Assembly (NCBI GenBank): GCA_031256905.1
Contig: JAIRPY010000094.1
Coordinates: 1 to 40,169 of the forward strand
DNA from: Spirochaetaceae bacterium
GTDB lineage: Bacteria > Spirochaetota > Spirochaetia > Treponematales > Breznakiellaceae
DNA: 40,169 nt
Reading direction: 5' to 3'
The position numbers and the translations under genes are program-made. This document shows, piece after piece, positions 1,292 through 13,874 of the stretch; position 1 is the first letter of the stretch, and the number at the start of each line of letters is the position of its first letter. The notes below the pieces were generated by a model that saw only the letters and a program-made list of their open reading frames with translations, did not search any database and was not told where the DNA came from.

Positions 1292-2647
1292 TTAGGCTGA
1301 CAAAGCCGCTACCGCCGCGCCGAACAGGGAGGCCTGTTCCACCGGAACTATCGTATAAGATCGGGGCTTTTGGGCGTTCAGCATACTATGCAGATAGGAT
1401 TCGAGGGCGGTTCTCATCCCTTTGTACCGCATAAACGTGGTGCCTTCCACCGCGATGCGGATCGGCGCGAAGGGGTTGAAGCTCTGGGTGCGTTCGGCCG
1501 CGGCGGCCACCATGGCGGCGGAAAAAAGTCCGGCCCGTTCGGTAAGGATCGAAACGAGATACGCGCAGGAAGCCAGGGCATTTTCCTCGTCGGGCCCGAA
1601 AAGCGCGGCTATGTTCCCTTCTCCCGAAAGGGGCGAGTACATAAAATCGTTTAAGTCCTTGGTCTGCAAGGTGTTCCAGGTTAAAAATTCATCGGCCCTT
1701 TTAAATTTGAGCAGACCGTCTTGGACCGCTTGTTTGAGGATATGCAGAGTCAGGGGACCCAGATACGCGCCGGCCACGCTTTTTTCAAGGGTATATTTTC
1801 CCGGGGTTTTGGTGGCGGCGTCGTATTCCTTATCCAGAACGCCCATGTAGCGGTGCGCGAAGGTGCCGGTTTCGCAGACCACGATTTGCGGCGCGGTTTC
1901 CGAAGCGAAGCCTATTTTGGGAATACTGACTTCGGGGTACGCGGTATTGACGCCGGTCCCCAAGATAAAACCGATTACCGGACCTCCCGGTAGGGCGTAG
2001 CGGTCTTTTCCGCGTAATTCCCCCCGGGCGGGGAGGTCTGCAAGCCCAAAAAGCAGAGTCGCCGCAGTATCGTTAAGCAGGACGATGCGTTCCGGGATTT
2101 TTTTTACGTTTCTGCGTTTGAGGGCTTCCCGCAGGCCCTGTCCTATGGCTTTTCCTAGGACCTCCGGGGCGTCAATTTCTTTGCTGAAGGTGATGAGGAT
2201 CCCGTCCGCTTCTTTGGTGATGTCCATGTGATACGAAAAGGTGAAGCCTATACCCGGAACATCCGGGGCTTTTTCGAGGAGCGGCGCGGTCAGTCCGGCG
2301 ATTTGATCGAAGAATTGTTCGGCCGTTACTCTGCCTTGGGTGCCGGGCATGGGGGCTTTTTGGGTATGTTGAGCAACCGCTTTTCCGGATTCGTCAAAGC
2401 TGACCAGAGCGGCGCGGAGGTTAGTGCCTCCCGCGTCGAGGGCGATGACGGTTTTCCCCTGAGGAACCCGCCCGATAGGGCTGATATAGGCCGGAATCAT
2501 GGGAAGACTGGACGATTGTCCCCGCAGGCCCCGTTCCATATCGATGAGGGTATCCTTCACCAAACCGATGGGGTCGATTCGGTCATAATGAAAACCGTAA
2601 TATCGGGCGAATTCAGATAATTCATTTGGATTAAAAGATGCATTCAT
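1292..2647 (-). CDS. Hexokinase (eukaryotic-type hexokinase fold)
   Basis: The 451-residue protein phosphorylates hexoses with ATP at the entry to glycolysis. The actin-like ATPase fold shows the first phosphate motif ALDAGGTNLRAAL near residue 70, the catalytic-loop motif LLNDTAATLLFG in the first half, a second glycine-rich phosphate motif GFILGTGVNTAY, and a C-terminal segment EGTTFMRYKG before the final helices. The size fits a single-domain hexokinase, larger than the roughly 320-residue bacterial glucokinases. I chose the ATG at 2647 over an upstream ATG at 2689. The residues added by the longer frame look unlike the family, and a TTGATC-17-TATTTT promoter sits with its -10 just 6 nt before the 2647 start, leaving no leader. 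The gene is divergent from moaC and followed by the tRNA. Confidence 0.92.
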   Translation of the reverse strand: MNASFNPNELSEFARYYGFHYDRIDPIGLVKDTLIDMERGLRGQSSSLPMIPAYISPIGRVPQGKTVIALDAGGTNLRAALVSFDESGKAVAQHTQKAPMPGTQGRVTAEQFFDQIAGLTAPLLEKAPDVPGIGFTFSYHMDITKEADGILITFSKEIDAPEVLGKAIGQGLREALKRRNVKKIPERIVLLNDTAATLLFGLADLPARGELRGKDRYALPGGPVIGFILGTGVNTAYPEVSIPKIGFASETAPQIVVCETGTFAHRYMGVLDKEYDAATKTPGKYTLEKSVAGAYLGPLTLHILKQAVQDGLLKFKRADEFLTWNTLQTKDLNDFMYSPLSGEGNIAALFGPDEENALASCAYLVSILTERAGLFSAAMVAAAAERTQSFNPFAPIRIAVEGTTFMRYKGMRTALESYLHSMLNAQKPRSYTIVPVEQASLFGAAVAALSA

Positions 2648-2653
2648 AAAATC

Positions 2654-2682
2654 AAAATACCCTAATCCGCCGGATGGATCAA
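2654..2682 (-). promoter_or_regulatory. Hexokinase promoter, predicted leaderless
   Basis: The minus strand has TTGATC (2677-2682), a 17-nt spacer and TATTTT (2654-2659). Exactly six bases (GATTTT) then separate the -10 from the ATG at 2647. The expected transcription start falls on or next to the A of ATG. No Shine-Dalgarno sequence is present. Confidence 0.65.
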
Positions 2683-2724
2683 GTATCAATCCGGAGCCTC
2701 ATGGGCGATGGGCCGAAAAAAATA

Positions 2725-2730
2725 TATATT
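2725..2730 (+). promoter_or_regulatory. Possible moaC -10 element six nt before ATG
   Basis: TATATT is followed by six bases (AAAAGC) and the ATG at 2737, the same spacing as in the neighbouring hexokinase gene. No good -35 is seen 17 nt upstream. An alternative start at 2701 preceded by CGGAG would place this hexamer inside the gene. Confidence 0.4.
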
Positions 2731-2736
2731 AAAAGC

Positions 2737-3207
2737 ATGGAAATGAATCATTTTGACGAAGCCGGCAACGCTATTATGGTAGATGTTTCCGGCAAAGATA
2801 TAACAGCCCGAAGGGCCATAGCGAAGGGGCATATCACAGCGGGAGAAGAAACCTTGCAGGCGGTTCGCGGCGGCGGCTCGGCTAAGGGCGACGTGCTGGG
2901 CGCGGCTCGGATTGCGGGCATTCTGGCGGCGAAACGTACCGCCGAGCTGATCCCCCTCTGCCATCCTCTCAGCTTTGACGCTTGTTCCATCGATTTTGAA
3001 ATTCTGGACGGGCGCATTGAAGCGGTCTGCACAGTAAAACTGTCGGGCCGAACCGGTGTGGAAATGGAAGCCCTTACCGGGGTATCCATCGCTTTACTTA
3101 CTATATATGATATGTGCAAAGCGATGGATCGGGGGATGGTTATCGGCGGAATCCGGCTGTGGGAAAAGCGGGGCGGAAAAAGCGGCGTTTTCATTCGCCC
3201 CGAATAG
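2737..3207 (+). CDS. moaC: Cyclic pyranopterin monophosphate synthase MoaC
   Basis: MoaC converts the MoaA product to cyclic pyranopterin monophosphate in molybdenum cofactor synthesis. The 156 residues cover the family end to end. They include the N-terminal [33 protein letters not shown] in the first half, the active-site stretch LIPLCHPL, and [19 protein letters not shown] with the conserved MCKA and Asp-rich MDRG near the end. The start at 2737 matches the usual MoaC N-terminus. An in-frame ATG at 2701 has a better ribosome site (CGGAG) and would add 12 residues, so the start is not settled. The presence of moaC means this organism makes Mo cofactor, which would serve the xanthine-dehydrogenase-type subunits at 25133-26469. 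The gene is convergent with the transporter at 3228, with about 20 bp between stops. Confidence 0.93.
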
Positions 3208-3227
3208 CCGGGCTTGATATTGGCGGG

Positions 3228-4802
3228 TTACAGAAATCCCCGGCTGGTGAGAAAGGCCTTAGCCGCGGTTTCAGGTTTTTGCTTTAGCACATCTACCTGA
3301 TAATTCATTTCCCGCATGGCCTTTTCATCGATTTGTCCGGCGAGAAGTTCGAAGATTTCCGGGAGTTCCGGGAAGGTTTTGAGGAGTTCCGGTTTTACCA
3401 GAGGAATTGCGTCATACGGAGGAAAGTGCTGAAGATCGTCTTCCAGTATGACGAGATCGAATTCCGCCAGAAGTCCGTCGGTGGAAAACGCGTCAATGAC
3501 GTCGCTTTGACGGTTAATAAGCGCGGTGTATCGGGGAACGCCGTCCATCCCAATGACCTCTTTAAACCGCAGGTTATACCGGGTTTCAAGGCCGGGGAGC
3601 CCGTCAAAGCGATTCATGAATTCCATCGTAGGAGTCATAATAAGCCCGGAGCTGACCTTCGCCAAATCCGAAATACTGGCGAGCTGATACTTTTCCGCGG
3701 TGTCCCGCCGTACCGCCAGCGCGTAGGTATTGTTAAAACCCAGCGCGGGAAACATTTGGAGGCCGTATTTTTCAGCAAATTCTTTTTTGACGAATTCGTA
3801 TATTTCGGTTTTGCTCAAATACGCGGACTGTCCCAAAATACTGCTGTACGCGGTGCCGAGATATTCTACATACATATTAATTTCATTTTTTTTCAGAGCT
3901 TCAAAAATAATTTGCGTGCCTCCGAGATCAAACAGTCTTACTACTTGTATATCGGTTTTGGCTTCGATGAGCTGTCCGTAGAGTTCGCTCATGAGATTTT
4001 GTTCGGTGTAATCTTTTGCGCCGAGGATAAGAGTTTTTTCAGCTTGCGGTTTTTTTGAAACGGCCATGCCCGCCATAAATCCGGCAACGCACAATCCGGC
4101 GGCGGCTAATCCGATGCGGCGTTGCATAAGAATCTTCCGGATGCGCATTTTATCGAGGGATTGTATATCCTTACGAAAGGCTATGGGCGATACGAATCCT
4201 TCGATGCGGGCTGTGAGAAAATCGATGCCGAGAGAAAGCAGACACGCCGGAATCGCGCCGGAAAGAATTTGCGCGGTATTGACGGTACGGATGCCGGAAT
4301 ACACAAGATAGCCCAAACCGCCCGCGCCGATAAAGGCCGCGATGGTTACTAATCCTACCGCCGCCACCGCAGAGATTCGCACTCCGGCCATGATAACCGG
4401 TAACGCGAGAGGCAGTTTTACTTTCAGCAGGATCTGCCGGGATGTCATGCCTATGCCCGTTGCGGCTTCGACGATGTCCTGGGAAATAGAATCCAAGCCG
4501 GTAACGGTATTTTTGATGATGGGAAGCAGAGAATATACCACCGCCATAAATATCGCAGGCCGGGTTCCGATGCCGAGAAAAGGAATCAGGAATCCGAGAA
4601 GCGCGAGACTCGGTAAAGCCTGTACGATATTCGCTAAACCTAATATAAAGGGCCGAAGTTTTTTCATGTAACTAACCGCGATGCCCAGGGGAACGCCAAT
4701 CGCCGTGGACAGTAACACGGCAAGCACCGTAAGCCGGCAGTGTTCTATAAGAAAACGAAGGATTTCAGCGCGATTTTGCGCCATATACTGGAGTATATAC
4801 AT
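3228..4802 (-). CDS. Osmoprotectant ABC importer: permease fused to substrate-binding domain
   Basis: The 524-residue protein carries two usually separate parts of an OpuC/OpuB-type glycine betaine, carnitine or choline importer. Residues 1-210 are a membrane permease with several hydrophobic segments and the EAA-type loop region EAATGIGMTSRQI. After a further membrane segment near 230-248, residues from about 255 form an OpuAC-type binding domain starting LILGAKDYTEQNLMSELYG, so the binding domain is tethered to the outer face of the membrane. The ATPase gene precedes it, and its TAA overlaps this ATG (TAATG), which implies translational coupling. The quaternary-amine specificity is inferred from the family. 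Aromatic cage residues cannot be assigned by eye. Confidence 0.9.
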   Translation of the reverse strand: MYILQYMAQNRAEILRFLIEHCRLTVLAVLLSTAIGVPLGIAVSYMKKLRPFILGLANIVQALPSLALLGFLIPFLGIGTRPAIFMAVVYSLLPIIKNTVTGLDSISQDIVEAATGIGMTSRQILLKVKLPLALPVIMAGVRISAVAAVGLVTIAAFIGAGGLGYLVYSGIRTVNTAQILSGAIPACLLSLGIDFLTARIEGFVSPIAFRKDIQSLDKMRIRKILMQRRIGLAAAGLCVAGFMAGMAVSKKPQAEKTLILGAKDYTEQNLMSELYGQLIEAKTDIQVVRLFDLGGTQIIFEALKKNEINMYVEYLGTAYSSILGQSAYLSKTEIYEFVKKEFAEKYGLQMFPALGFNNTYALAVRRDTAEKYQLASISDLAKVSSGLIMTPTMEFMNRFDGLPGLETRYNLRFKEVIGMDGVPRYTALINRQSDVIDAFSTDGLLAEFDLVILEDDLQHFPPYDAIPLVKPELLKTFPELPEIFELLAGQIDEKAMREMNYQVDVLKQKPETAAKAFLTSRGFL

Positions 4803-5929
4803 TATTGATCCACATATCTTTTGCTGAGAGCCGTCACGAGACTGCTTTTGGTGATAATGCCCGCGAGTTTTCCATCTTCTTCGATTACCGGCGCGGAAGA
4901 AACGTTCCGCTGTTTCATCTGCCGGAGAACGTCTAAAATAGAATCCTGCGCTTTGGCGGCGTATATATTTCTGTGCAGAATCTGGGCCGCCGGCTTATGG
5001 TAATCCGGAGCGTCTTCGACATCCTCCGAGTATACCGCTCCCTCAAGTTTATTCTCGTCATCCACGATAAGAATACTGTCGACGCTACGGAACCGCATGG
5101 TTTCCAGGCAACGCAGAAGAGAACAGTTTTTGTGCGTCGAGACAGGATTTATGAGCATAATATCTTCCGCCCGAATGAGTTCAGGAGTCGTCCAAATACG
5201 ATGTTTTCCCACGAATTTAGCCGTAAAACCGTCTACCGGATTTTTCAGTATTTTTTCCGGCGCGTCGTATTGCAGAATTTCGCCTTGGTAAAGGATGCAG
5301 ATTCGATCCGCGAGCTTTATCGCTTCGTCCATATCATGGGTAACGAAGACCACCGTTTTTCTGAGCTTGCTTTGAAGCCGTAACAGCTCGTCCTGAAGCT
5401 GTTCTCTTGTGATCGGGTCTAACGCGGAAAAGGGTTCATCCATCAAGATAATTTCCGGATCCCGGGCGAAAGCCCGGGCAACCCCAACTCGCTGTTGCTG
5501 GCCTCCGGAAAGTTGCGCCGGATACCGATCAAGAAAAACCTCCGGATGCAATCCTACCATTTCAAGAAGTTCCGCGTTTTTTTGCAGTATTTTCTTCCGC
5601 TCCGCTTTTTTCTTCGCCCCTCCCAAAGAAGAAACTATTTCGATGTTCTGCCGGATAGTCAAATGGGGAAAAAGCCCGACCGATTGAATCACATAACCGA
5701 TATTGCGGCGCAAACGATACACGTTTTTTGTTTTTATATCTTCGCCGCGGATGCAAATACTCCCAGATGTAGGCTCTAAAAGCCGGTTTATCATCTTGAG
5801 AACCGTAGTTTTCCCGCATCCCGAAGGACCTATCAAAACAGCGATTTCATTTTCATGAACATCAAAGGTTATGCCTCTGATTACATCCTGCTGTTTATAT
5901 TTTTTTACCACACCCTTGAACTGTATCAC
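4802..5929 (-). CDS. Osmoprotectant ABC importer ATPase with CBS pair
   Basis: The 375-residue ATP-binding subunit pairs with the permease-binding fusion directly downstream. Walker A GPSGCGKTT is at about residues 34-42, the signature LSGGQQQR near 140 and Walker B IILMDEPFSALDP near 160, followed by the switch histidine in VFVTHDMDEA. From about residue 255 to the end are two CBS domains (INPVSTHKNCSLLRCLETM and the final SSAPVIEEDGKLAGIITKSS). In OpuA-type systems these sense ionic strength or cyclic di-AMP. The start codon is GTG at 5929. No Shine-Dalgarno sequence precedes it. A TATTAA five bases upstream resembles the leaderless arrangement at other genes, but lacks a convincing -35. 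Confidence 0.92.
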   Translation of the reverse strand: MIQFKGVVKKYKQQDVIRGITFDVHENEIAVLIGPSGCGKTTVLKMINRLLEPTSGSICIRGEDIKTKNVYRLRRNIGYVIQSVGLFPHLTIRQNIEIVSSLGGAKKKAERKKILQKNAELLEMVGLHPEVFLDRYPAQLSGGQQQRVGVARAFARDPEIILMDEPFSALDPITREQLQDELLRLQSKLRKTVVFVTHDMDEAIKLADRICILYQGEILQYDAPEKILKNPVDGFTAKFVGKHRIWTTPELIRAEDIMLINPVSTHKNCSLLRCLETMRFRSVDSILIVDDENKLEGAVYSEDVEDAPDYHKPAAQILHRNIYAAKAQDSILDVLRQMKQRNVSSAPVIEEDGKLAGIITKSSLVTALSKRYVDQ

Positions 5930-5997
5930 TAATGTTAATAGTGCTGAAAAAGAAGATAAAGATCCAATATTTTTTTAATCTTTTTTGAAAAAAACTC

Positions 5998-9341: not shown

Positions 9342-10196
9342 ATGGACAAAGCAAAAGCCGGTTACTTTGAAGGATTTATTTCGATAGGGGTGAATTCGGC
9401 GTTGTTTGCCCTGAAATTATGGGCGGGAATCCTCACGAACTCCCTGGCCCTGACCGCAGATGCCTGGCATACTTTTTCCGATTCGCTAAGCTCTCTGATT
9501 CTTATTATCGGGGTGAAACTTTCCTCAAAAAAAGCGGACCGGGAACATCCCTTCGGCCATGGCCGAATCGAGCATATTACCTCGCTTTTTATTGCTTTCT
9601 TCCTCGGCCTTATCGCCTATGAATTTTTAAAAACCGCGGCCGGGCAATTTATCCGCCGGGAATCCCCGGTTTACGGAAAAACCGCGCTGGCCGTTACGAG
9701 CCTTTCGATTATTGCGAAGGAACTCCTGGCCCAATACGCTTTTTCCATCGCCCGAAAAACCCAAAATCCCAGCGTAAGAGCCGACGGCTGGCATCACCGA
9801 AGCGACGCGCTGTCTTCCGTCGGGGTGTTAGCCGGCCTCTTGTTTGGGAAAAACCTGTGGTGGATAGACTCGGCCCTGGGCGGAGCTATAGCCTTCCTGC
9901 TGTTTTACACCGCCTATGGAATCATCAAAGCCAGTGCCGCGGCCCTGCTCGGCGAAGAGCCGGATCAAAATTTAATCGATCAGATAACTGAAGAGGTTAA
10001 GGGCCGATACAATCAGGATTTGGCTCTGCATCACTTTCATATACACAATTATGTGACCCATAAAGAATTGACTTTGCACATTCGTCTCGATAAAACCCTG
10101 AGCATCGACCAGGGCCATAGCATAGCGACCGATATTGAACATAAAATCGCGGAAAAGTTCGGGATTATCGCTACGGTTCATGTAGAACCTAACTAG
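9342..10196 (+). CDS. Cation diffusion facilitator (CDF) family metal exporter
   Basis: This 284-residue inner-membrane antiporter expels divalent metal (zinc, iron, manganese, cobalt or nickel class) in exchange for protons. The two site-A motifs are visible: ADAWHTFSDS (D40, H43, D47) in the second membrane helix and DGWHHRSDA in the fifth. Several further hydrophobic helices follow (for example SLFIAFFLGLIAYEF). The last ~80 residues are the soluble cytoplasmic domain, with the metal-associated stretch LHHFHIHNYV and the terminal histidine region VHVEPN. HxxxD in the fifth-helix site is compatible with several metals, so specificity is not assigned. The start ATG directly follows a strong promoter with no leader. 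A Met/His-rich 21-bp minisatellite begins about 85 bp after the stop. Confidence 0.92.
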   Translation: MDKAKAGYFEGFISIGVNSALFALKLWAGILTNSLALTADAWHTFSDSLSSLILIIGVKLSSKKADREHPFGHGRIEHITSLFIAFFLGLIAYEFLKTAAGQFIRRESPVYGKTALAVTSLSIIAKELLAQYAFSIARKTQNPSVRADGWHHRSDALSSVGVLAGLLFGKNLWWIDSALGGAIAFLLFYTAYGIIKASAAALLGEEPDQNLIDQITEEVKGRYNQDLALHHFHIHNYVTHKELTLHIRLDKTLSIDQGHSIATDIEHKIAEKFGIIATVHVEPN

Positions 10197-10261
10197 GTAT
10201 ATTTTCTTTTCGGTCCTTTTCGTCCTCCCAGGACTTCTAGGTCCGGGAGCCTCATAGCCTG

Positions 10262-10726
10262 ATGGGAAAGCCTCGTAGCCTGGGGGGAAAGCCCCACACC
10301 ATGATACGAAAACCTCATCCCATGGGGGGAAAGCCTCATCCCATGGGGGGAAAGCCTCATCCCATGGGGGGAAAGCCTCATCCCATGGGGGGAAAGGCTC
10401 ATCCCATGATACGAAAGCCCCACACCATGATACGAAAACCTCACACCATGGGGGGAAAGCCTCATCCCATGGGGGGAAAGCCTCATCCCATGAGGGGAAA
10501 GGCTCACACCATGGGGGGAAAGCCCCACACCATGATACGAAAACCTCACACCATGGGGGGAAAGCCTCATCCCATGAGGGGAAAGCCTCATCCCATGGGG
10601 AGAAAGGCTCACACCATGGGGGGAAAGGCTCATCCCATGGGGGGAAAGGCTCATCCCATGGGGGGAAAGCCTCATCCCATGGGGGGAAAGCCCCATAGCA
10701 GGGGTTCAGGGATGACTACAGGTTAG
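10262..10726 (+). CDS. Doubtful ORF across the minisatellite (His/Met/Lys heptapeptide repeats)
   Basis: If translated, this 154-residue frame would give about 20 copies of a heptapeptide of the type MGGKPHP, MIRKPHT or MGGKAHP. That is a basic, histidine- and methionine-rich chain with no hydrophobic core. Histidine recurs every seven residues, which could bind metal, and the metal exporter lies just upstream on the same strand in a different frame. No promoter or Shine-Dalgarno sequence is seen before the ATG at 10262. The opposite strand is equally open, so openness is expected from the repeat alone. I list it so the possibility is recorded, not as a confident gene. Confidence 0.15.
   Translation: MGKPRSLGGKPHTMIRKPHPMGGKPHPMGGKPHPMGGKPHPMGGKAHPMIRKPHTMIRKPHTMGGKPHPMGGKPHPMRGKAHTMGGKPHTMIRKPHTMGGKPHPMRGKPHPMGRKAHTMGGKAHPMGGKAHPMGGKPHPMGGKPHSRGSGMTTG
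10280..10699. repeat. 21-bp minisatellite, 20 tandem units
   Basis: Twenty units of exactly 21 bp run without interruption, with degenerate flanks from about 10240. The commonest unit starts ATGGGGGG and ends CATCCC, so each junction forms the 8-bp palindrome CCCATGGG. Variation is modular. Bases 4-8 are GGGGG, ATACG or AGGGG; the middle is AAGCCT, AAGCCC, AAACCT or AAGGCT; the end is CATCCC or CACACC. Because 21 is a multiple of three and the unit has no stop, one frame stays open on each strand. The plus frame (10262-10726) would give M-G-G-K-P-H-P heptapeptides and the minus frame (10696-10193) M-R-L-S-P-H-G heptapeptides. Neither has a ribosome site. The array lies between two convergent genes. 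Confidence 0.95.
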
Positions 10727-10735
10727 GGAGAAGAG

Positions 10736-12862
10736 CTATTCGGCTTTGAATTTGGAAAGTTCGGATTGGAGGAGGTCGATAGAACGTTTTGTTTCGCCGC
10801 TTATGGCGTTGACTTGGAGGACGGCCTGGTTAATTTTTTCCGCTTCTTTGGCCATTTCATTCATGCTGTCGGAGATTTCTGCGGTTCCTTGTTCTAAGGT
10901 TCGGCATTCGCCGCCGATTTCTCGGCCTCCTTGCCGCATTCGGGTGAAACTTTCCTTAATAGTTTGGGTTCCTTCGGTGAGGCGGGTGACGGCTTCCAGA
11001 ATCTGCTTGCTTCCGAGGTCCTGTTCTTCCATTGCGCTTCGGACCGCGCTCTCCTGGGCCGATACGGTTCTCACCCCTTGGTCGATAGCCTCAAAACGTT
11101 CGAGCACCCCCGCGGCGGCCGTAGATATTTTGTCAATCGAGGTCTTGATTTCCTTCAAAACTCCGGCGATGGTCTTTGATTGTTTCGAGGAAGATTCCGC
11201 GAGTTTTCGGATTTCTTCGGCCACGACCGCGAAACCCTTCCCGGATTCCCCGGCATGGGCCGCTTCAATAGCGGCATTCATCGAAAGCAGGTTGGTTTGG
11301 CTGGCGATATTCGCCATCACCGAGGTAATGCCGATAAGGCCCTCCGATTCTTTCGCCACATTTTGCATTTCCCCGGCAATGCCGCTCAAACCGGTTCGGC
11401 CGCTTTCGGCCGCGGCGGATAAGTTTTCCATATTTTTCGCGTTGCCTATCAAAGTTCGGGCCACATTGGCGATATTTGAAACCATTTCTTCGACCGCCGC
11501 GGAGGATTTGGCTATATCTTCGGCTTGAGTTTCAATATGTTTCCCCAAGTTTTCAATAACGCCGTCAATATCCCCGATAACCTTAGCAGTCTTGTCTACG
11601 TTTTTCCCCTGGGTTTGGGTTTGCCGCTCCACATTGCCGATACTAGCGGTAATTTCTTTGACGGCCAAGGCGGTTTCGTCCATGTTTTCCGCGAGCTTTC
11701 CCCCGATTTCCCCAAGACCCGCGGCCTGAACCTTCACCTGCCGGATAAGTTCCTGAATAGAATCAAGAATCTTGTTGAAGTAAGTTCCCATGGCGCCGAT
11801 TTCATCATTACTGTAGATTCTAAGCCGTTTAGTAAGGTCTCCTTCTCCTTCGGAAATGTCTTTCATGCGATCCGCTACTCGGTTGATGCGCCGGGAAAGA
11901 CTGTTGGACACCAGGTAAATGCACCCCGCCGCAACCACCGCCGCCCCGGCAATAAAAAGAAGCGCGAAATGAACGAGTTTTACCAAAGGCGCCCGGACCG
12001 TTTTGAGGTCCGCCATGGCAAGAATAAGATAAGGATTCTTTGCAGTCCCCACAGTAAAGGGATAAGCCACCCAAATAGCATCCTTGGAGGTGAAGGCGGT
12101 CGAGTCCTTTCGGGCAATGAGCCGAGGGATTATGTCCGCTCCCGCGCTGGGAAAGGACGCGCTGGTTCCTTGGGAGAAGGGTTTGCCGAGCATATCGTCT
12201 TGGTAGTGGGCGCAGATGGTTCCATCGCCGGCGACTACCGCGACATGGCCGGTTTGATAGGGCCGAAGACCCGCAACATAAGGCTGAAGAGGACCAATAT
12301 TCACCTGCATTCCCACAACCCCCAGGACCTTTCCCCGGACAATAATAGCAGATCGGACTTCGATAATCAGCGCGTTTTTGCCCTGCCTATTCATCGTCAT
12401 CGGGAAACTGACGAAGTCGTTTTGGTCCGTTTCCGCGAGGACCTGCTGGTACCCCGGGTAGGTCTCCGGGGTAATAATCTCGTTTAGGTGGCTGTAATAG
12501 GGGATAAACTCCGCATCTTCTTCGTCGATGACGCCTTTATGCCAGAAAGCGTACATTCCAGTTATATTTTCATCGGATTTGAGGATATTCCGCAGGATGT
12601 CGGTAAACTCGGTGCGGCGGATTTCGGGATAGACCTGTTCGTAGCCGCTCATAATGACAGAAAGAGCTTTGGTTTTTTCAAGGTAGGCTTTGTAATACTC
12701 GGTAACTTTGGCGGCGTAGAGGGCGGCTTGGCTGGTCATATCTTGCAGGATGACCCGGTCCTGCATTTTCGCTCCCTGGAAGAAGAGGACGACTATAATG
12801 ACCGCTATAAGGGTCAAAGTTAGAAGCGAATTGGTAAGGGTAAGCCGGTATTTGAACTTCAT
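10736..12862 (-). CDS. Methyl-accepting chemotaxis protein with dCache-type sensor
   Basis: This membrane chemoreceptor signals to CheA/CheW. After the chosen start (ATG at 12862, preceded by GGGAG at good spacing) a first membrane helix covers about residues 8-30. A periplasmic sensor domain of about 270 residues follows, of dCache type: it contains [12 protein letters not shown]-like and YPGYQQV segments and ends at [11 protein letters not shown]. The second membrane helix is near 300-323, then a HAMP domain and a long helical signalling hairpin. The conserved tip is present ([20 protein letters not shown], then [18 protein letters not shown]). The ligand is unknown. An upstream in-frame ATG at 12901 is less likely because the Shine-Dalgarno sequence sits before 12862. 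It is divergent from the methyltransferase operon. Confidence 0.94.
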
Positions 12863-12879
12863 GGTTTCTCCCAAAAGAG

Positions 12880-12909
12880 GATATACAAGAGTGTCTAACA
12901 TTTTTTCAA
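12880..12909 (-). promoter_or_regulatory. Probable promoter of the chemoreceptor gene
   Basis: On the minus strand TTGAAA (12904-12909), 18 nt and TATATC (12880-12885) lie upstream of the GGGAG ribosome site and the ATG at 12862. The match is moderate. A second possibility, using TTGACT further upstream, lacks a good -10. Confidence 0.4.
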
Positions 12910-13015: not shown

Positions 13016-13825
13016 ATGCTCATAATAGGTGAAAAAATAAACGGGTCCATACCTTCGGTGGCCCGGGGGATTGCCGAGAAAAACGGCGATATGATTCGGG
13101 ACTTGGCGAAACGGCAGGCCGATGCAGGCGCGGCGTTTATCGATGTATGCGCTTCGGTGCCGCCTTCTGCGGAACTTGAAACCCTGCATTGGCTCATTGA
13201 TATGGTTCAGAGCGTAACCGATAGGCCCATCGCTATTGACAGTCCCAGCGCGCACATCTGCGCGGAAGCGATTCGGTTCTGCAAAAGACCGGGCCTGATC
13301 AATTCGGTTTCTATGGAAGGGGACAAAATCGATAAAATTTTCCCCTTGATTGCTGATACGTCTTGGGAATGCATCGCTTTGCTCTGCGACGATACGGAAA
13401 TTTCCAAAACCGTGGAAAAACGGCTGAGCGTTTTCGAGAAAATTATGCAAAAAGCCCAGGAATACCGCATCCCGGCGAACCGGCTTCACATTGATCCTTT
13501 GGTGCAGATGCTTTGCACTTCGGAGGACGGCATCCTCTCGATCCTCGAGGCCCTGCGGGAAATCAAGAAACGGTATCCGAAGATTCACATTACCGGCGGG
13601 GCCAGCAATATTTCCTTCAATCTGCCTATGCGCAGGTACATAAACCAGGGGTTCATCGTTCTTTCCATGAGCGCGGGTATGGACAGCGCGATTCTTGACC
13701 CTCTGAATCGGGATCTGATGGGGCTGATTTACGCCGCGGAAGCCCTCCTCGGGCAGGACGAATTTTGCATGGAATACATCGGCGCGTTCCGAGCCGGCCT
13801 TTTCGGGAACGAAAAACGTTCATAA
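13016..13825 (+). CDS. Methyltetrahydrofolate:corrinoid methyltransferase (pterin-binding, AcsE/MtvA class)
   Basis: The 269-residue TIM-barrel protein transfers methyl groups between a corrinoid protein and tetrahydrofolate. The pterin-binding family is recognised from MLIIGEKINGSIP at the N-terminus, ADAGAAFIDVCASVPP, PIAIDSPS, LINSVSMEGDK, HIDPLVQ and ITGGASNISFNLP. These correspond to strand-end motifs of AcsE, MetH pterin and O-demethylase MT2 proteins. The ATG at 13016 has an ideal AGGAG five bases upstream. The corrinoid protein follows after 49 bp in the same operon. There is no MT1 (substrate-specific) methyltransferase or activating protein beside it. It could serve the Wood-Ljungdahl pathway, O-demethylation or methylamine use, and the sequence does not decide which. 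Confidence 0.9.
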   Translation: MLIIGEKINGSIPSVARGIAEKNGDMIRDLAKRQADAGAAFIDVCASVPPSAELETLHWLIDMVQSVTDRPIAIDSPSAHICAEAIRFCKRPGLINSVSMEGDKIDKIFPLIADTSWECIALLCDDTEISKTVEKRLSVFEKIMQKAQEYRIPANRLHIDPLVQMLCTSEDGILSILEALREIKKRYPKIHITGGASNISFNLPMRRYINQGFIVLSMSAGMDSAILDPLNRDLMGLIYAAEALLGQDEFCMEYIGAFRAGLFGNEKRS

Positions 13826-13866
13826 ATATTTTATAAATATTAAGGAATATTTTATAAATATTAAGG
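13825..13866 (+). repeat. Tandem 21-bp duplication carrying two ribosome binding sites
   Basis: Two head-to-tail copies (13825-13845 and 13846-13866) of an AT-rich 21-mer beginning AATATTTTATAAATATT and ending AAGG lie between the methyltransferase stop and the corrinoid protein start. Each copy holds the inverted repeat AATATT-TTATA-AATATT and an AAGGA. The second AAGGA, extended to AAGGAG, is correctly placed before the ATG at 13875. The first lies 21 nt further up and could only act as a standby site. Confidence 0.9.
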
Positions 13867-13874
13867 AGAAATAT

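Follow-up and report, generated by a model that had tools for sequence, protein, structure and literature searches.

A 21 bp intergenic minisatellite of a Spirochaetaceae bacterium belongs to a genus-wide class of non-coding arrays with a common 21 bp step

A tandem array between two convergent genes of a Spirochaetaceae bacterium is a non-coding, dispersed minisatellite, and belongs to a class of intergenic arrays, spread across the genus, that share a step of 21 bp. The array lies in the window, the whole stretch of 40,169 nucleotides that we analysed (contig JAIRPY010000094.1, labelled C38 in our survey of its own genome, G000), and positions given without a locus label are those of the window. 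A sequence-only reading had drawn attention to this one array; the 21 bp period common to many unrelated arrays across the genome lay beyond what the view of a single window had shown. The common step is explained by nothing known. Our best explanation, held with moderate confidence, is that the 21 bp-step arrays of this genus are non-coding and that their unit length is filtered by exact helical phase, at growth or at survival.

Results

TRF reported the window array at 10264–10696 as 20.6 copies of a 21 bp unit, with 0% indels and a score of 523; a tandem repeat counts as a minisatellite or satellite from four head-to-tail copies upwards, given a unit of 10 bp or more. The register layout of positions 10267–10686 resolved 20 gap-free units of exactly 21 bp, as previously noted, with degenerate units flanking both ends. 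CCCATGGG had been placed at every junction; this was wrong, as it occurs at 9/19 junctions and the invariant element is CATG. The modular, mosaic nature of the units was confirmed: CATG is followed by GGGG, ATAC, AGGG or GGGA and preceded by ATCC, ACAC or ATAG, in combinatorial fashion. Self-identity within the array reaches its maximum at a lag of 105 (0.87), indicating that blocks of about five units were duplicated. These block duplications, and the presence of arrays of the same family at several loci, support the earlier suggestion of recombination or conversion between units. A CRISPR array was rejected because the units are contiguous at 21 bp, without spacers. Rfam matches in the window were limited to two tRNAs, so that the array matches no structured-RNA family, and a promoter or terminator function was rejected, no consensus site being found.

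Table 1. Features of the window associated with the 21 bp array and its surroundings
Feature	Position	Strand	Evidence and remarks
Cation-efflux (CDF) transporter gene	9342..10196	+	PF01545 (E 1.2e-45), PF16916; 3' end 49 bp before array
Open frame, SPHGMRL repeats, not regarded as a gene	10193..10696	-	Frame and homologous-array tests
Whole array with degenerate end units	about 10246..10707		Over 433 bp, no indels and 49 mismatches relative to the consensus
Open frame, MGGKPHP repeats, not regarded as a gene	10262..10726	+	Frame and homologous-array tests
Array core, CATG at 19/19 junctions	10300..10681		Unit CATG-NNNN-GARA-NN-CTC-NNNN, with variable blocks; column entropies
Methyl-accepting chemotaxis protein gene	10736..12901	-	PF00015, HAMP, dCache; 3' end 28 bp after array
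Perfect two-copy 21 bp duplication (AATATTTTATAAATATTAAGG)	13825..13867		Intergenic gap adjoining pterin-binding (methyltransferase-like) gene

The own genome is a 2.09 Mb MAG, 73% complete, and five further genomes of the genus were available (G126–G130). Because all the genomes are fragmented MAGs, copy number and the ends of contigs carry uncertainty; sister species and other genera were sampled in part. Among the best relatives of the cation-efflux gene are MAGs carrying the name Treponema, from which we infer a termite-gut Treponema as the host. The genome search for further arrays of the window unit that had been suggested from the sequence found four, on contigs C8, C20, C44 and C48. 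With five loci in all, the unit shows the pattern of a dispersed satellite, one unit at several loci of a genome. The window array is above chance, as attested by its TRF score and by these four further loci. Three loci of sister G126 also carry the unit, and their arrays cluster with the window array; the orthologous cation-efflux locus of G130 (68% amino acid identity) is without an array. As stated previously, the window array sits between convergent genes beside a metal exporter (Table 1). A histidine-rich product had been considered of potential interest beside the exporter, which is probably an incidental neighbour because the same unit is found in several other gene contexts. Searches for a phage or plasmid source gave no match in phages, plasmids or viral contigs (for the latter, one exact 27-base pattern).

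The survey of the own genome covered 1.08 Mb, and autocorrelation was calculated without TRF on 104 kb of intergenic DNA at lags of 8 to 159. Intergenic arrays numbered 33, of which 28 had a 21 bp fundamental or a 42 bp multiple and four had a period of 23 bp. BLAST clustering placed the intergenic arrays in 20 families; the period is 21, 42 or 63 in 16 of them, and two or three families have 23 bp units (2.2 turns). The seven strongest intergenic autocorrelation lags were, in order, 42, 126, 84, 21, 147, 105 and 63. The comb of 21 bp lags was also present in sisters G126, G128 and G129, with different unit sequences; a single 21 bp array without the comb was present in G127, and the signal in G130 amounted to a trace. 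No 21 bp intergenic arrays were detected in 400 kb sampled from four other genera of the family or in 299 kb of control loci, and the four genera likewise lacked the comb. A literature search found, within the library covered, no earlier report of a 21 bp repeat class in bacteria, spirochaetes or termite-gut Treponema. The two halves of the units in the 42 bp families are unrelated (lag-21 identity 0.32–0.43), and the 63 bp modules (L055, L100 and L121) carry a mobile-element end motif at non-21 spacings that sum to 63. Simple inheritance from a single 21 bp ancestor therefore does not account for the unit length. One family with an 85 bp period (L069, L093) carries a 22 bp step.

The 23 bp-unit intergenic arrays are hairpin-like and were observed in the own genome and G126 (L061 344–501, L120 471–625, L099 3229–3405, L122 9862–9970 and L144 77–285). 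Repeats of 92 and 105 bp in G128 (4 × 23 and 5 × 21) have one common GC-rich theme (L137 3567–3833, L166 3495–3700, L167 1–298 and L168 218–429).

Array units mostly diverge by about 10–25%, yet units of 20 or 22 bp are rare. A total of 36 of 57 arrays contained 960 mismatches and zero indels, counts in which mismatches within one array are non-independent events and the scarcity of indels may partly reflect homogenisation and the bias of TRF to gap-free repeats. Neutral bacterial DNA acquires roughly one indel per 5–20 substitutions. Outside the arrays, short duplications of two to three copies had periods mostly of 9 to 28 bp, and a preference for 21 bp was not distinct among them (seven at 21 bp versus 3, 6, 3 and 3 at 19, 20, 22 and 23 bp). 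As short duplications seem to arise at many lengths, the length filter seems to act on growth or retention. The perfect two-copy duplication elsewhere in the window (Table 1) is possibly a newborn array.

Where a gene flanks an array in a sister genome, its homologue in the own genome can lack one, as in pairs with 83%, 76% and 75% identity. Arrays are concentrated in convergent gaps (10 of 26 arrays versus 118 of 899 gaps; OR 4.4, p 9e-4), and lie closer to gene 3' ends (median 28 bp) than to 5' ends (90 bp; p 0.003). A codon alignment of metH (L109, G000:C51; ORF 1342–5985) revealed a 933 bp, 311-codon in-frame segment between the first two domains, which contains a 21 bp array at L109 2776–3008. 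The G129 sequence runs straight through the insertion site, and the G127 and G128 matches are contiguous there. metH has taken up an array-bearing segment in frame.

Direct signs of helical phase were weak. A common 10.5 bp A/T phasing across the arrays was not found (Fisher p 0.057, driven by one 42 bp family), nor was a helical pattern of column conservation in the arrays (p 0.07). Phased A/T curvature was rejected as a general rule, having been seen in a 42 bp family only. The unit consensuses showed dyad symmetry above dinucleotide shuffles (z 5.1), and single-strand self-pairing of the arrays exceeded that of permuted controls (mean z -1.7); no compensatory covariation around the dyad was detected (Stouffer -0.9).

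Discussion

B-DNA has 10.5 bp per turn, so that 21 bp is exactly two turns and only multiples of 21 bp hold phase over hundreds of base pairs; for this reason we favour a step that depends on helical phase. We propose that local sequence is duplicated by chance at any length, and that only duplications of whole 21 bp multiples would expand to long arrays or be retained in that form, since growth or packaging would require successive units to lie on exactly one face of the helix. Phase could be sensed by a protein that coats the DNA in a face-specific manner, or by an exchange reaction. Arrays would grow via unequal exchange or slippage of unit blocks, would be copied to new sites, and would be tolerated mainly at gene 3' ends, away from promoters. 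Any function of the window array would be structural, such as phased protein coating or the absorption of supercoils between the convergent genes. Exact helical commensurability is our best guess, as yet unproven, and the phase-dependent step in growth or retention is inferred. The 23 bp families and the 22 bp step (L069, L093) are exceptions that the helical model leaves unexplained. More tentatively, we speculate that units of any sequence are restricted to whole multiples of 21 bp in length, as an architectural feature read by a candidate face-specific protein filament or amplification machine.

The arrays could instead be ordinary neutral minisatellites, produced by slippage or unequal exchange that in this lineage favours about 21 bp, with neither selection nor helix geometry involved. 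This explanation, which we consider rather unlikely, is in keeping with the location of the arrays where insertions are tolerated (3' ends and convergent gaps), their fast turnover, the lack of dyad covariation, and the fact that unrelated sequences become units, mobile-element ends included. However, it leaves unexplained the 42 and 63 bp families with unrelated halves, the scarcity of units of 20 or 22 bp despite 15–25% divergence, and the absence of a clear 21 bp peak among short duplications.

It is improbable that the arrays are REP/BIME-like elements mobilised by a Y1 (RAYT-like) transposase. The own genome carries eight near-identical Y1 (RAYT/IS200-like) transposase genes, on contigs C1, C39, C47, C69, C72, C80, C120 and C126 (L199–L206). 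A TGTCTGGCACT/AGTGCCAGACA inverted repeat immediately precedes several Y1 genes; this motif has 40 occurrences against 2 expected and is also a component of three tandem arrays. Y1 genes were present in the five array-bearing members of the genus and absent from G130. This distribution and the Y1-linked sequence in three arrays make a role for Y1 possible, and the excess dyad symmetry of the array consensuses would suit REP/BIME-like elements, as would the mosaic intergenic clusters and the Y1 transposase with an adjoining inverted repeat, both known from REP/BIME and RAYT systems (PMC2817692, PMC3733652). REPs, however, are mostly single or in small clusters, whereas the array families are essentially without single units outside arrays (one 15 bp match); they differ further in being head-to-tail direct arrays of many unrelated families with a fixed 21 bp step. 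The window unit lacks three marks of a REP/BIME element: it is not palindromic (dyad symmetry at chance level, p 0.76), its family has no match outside arrays in place of dispersed single copies, and rather than flanking a transposase it is unrelated to the Y1 upstream ends (TGTCTGGCACT). Moreover, G128 and G129 are array-rich with one Y1 gene each.

A heptapeptide-coding role for the window array had also been raised as a possibility, and more generally the arrays could encode heptapeptide-repeat proteins, 21 bp being seven codons. We regard this as very unlikely and already largely refuted, even though open frames are common among the arrays, in-frame heptads lie inside metH, and one array lies at the 5' end of a restriction-modification-like gene. 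Both strands of the window array are open, as reported, with two open frames per strand (in the CATG-to-CATG core) where one had been counted. The Met/Lys/His frame meets stops in homologous arrays (one at C44, seven within 15 units at C48 and two at G126 C190). The Ser/Pro/His/Gly frame is open at all five own-genome loci and has stops at G126 C112 (two) and G126 C190 (one); it is mostly stop-free because conserved letters of the unit forbid stops in five of seven codons. Against column-permuted arrays, which keep composition and variation and scramble the frames, 39 arrays had 113 open frames where 97 were expected (combined p 0.41). The test for codon-level selection that had been called for gave no excess of synonymous variation against the same controls (p 0.90 over 39 arrays; p 0.43 for the window array). 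In two arrays (L101 and L114:15419), all six frames are closed. The need to keep a frame would by itself permit units of 15, 18, 24 or 30 bp, none of which form arrays here, and the 23 bp arrays are unable to keep a frame. On these sequence comparisons, we classify the window array as non-coding and not a peptide gene, and it probably makes no product at its locus.

A reverse transcriptase or diversity-generating retroelement that writes units from a short RNA template would fit the fixed step length and modular variants but is the least credible source of the arrays, as array-bearing genomes G000, G126, G128 and G129 (62–74% complete) gave no RVT_1 match.

Bacterial tandem repeats are usually taken to be neutral slippage products or coding repeats. 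Plasmid iterons are direct repeats about two helical turns apart, with proteins bound on one face. The present arrays resemble iteron arrays in being direct repeats at approximately two-turn spacing, and differ in being chromosomal, of up to about 50 units, with no common motif and no replication initiator identified. Like the bacterial satellites of Subirana and Messeguer 2019, they consist of tandem units no shorter than 10 bp, form families with more than one array each, and are intergenic and dispersed within one genome (PMC6749651). The same text describes non-coding dispersed repeat families of Leptospira interrogans, also a spirochaete, and puts all Leptospira repeats above 30 nt. In its available part, the paper gives no unit length common to unrelated families and ascribes multiples of three to coding; here, unlike those satellites, about 16 unrelated non-coding families have 21n in common. 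The dispersed minisatellite is of a known kind (PMC6749651), and the new element is a helix-commensurate unit length common to unrelated non-coding families. Borg elements likewise carry many unrelated, fast-evolving arrays per genome, both intergenic and within genes (Schoelmerich et al. 2023; PMC9879509). In Borgs the units are reported to be perfect repeats, and only 14–38% of intergenic unit lengths are divisible by three; here the lengths are fixed at 21n and most units differ by 10–25%.

If the helical reading is correct, the convergence of unrelated non-coding families on two helical turns is a natural experiment on minisatellite unit length, and could expose a chromosome-coating protein, or a step of repair or replication that senses helical phase. 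Such a helix-commensurate class would constitute a sequence-independent architectural DNA feature in a bacterial genus. The metH segment, absent from a sister species, represents a case of repeats entering a housekeeping gene.

Two further genes seemingly start inside a 21 bp array (L065 13798–15708 and L085 13908–15683), one restriction-modification-like and one murJ-like. Their N-terminal residues may derive from the array, unless the start is misplaced.
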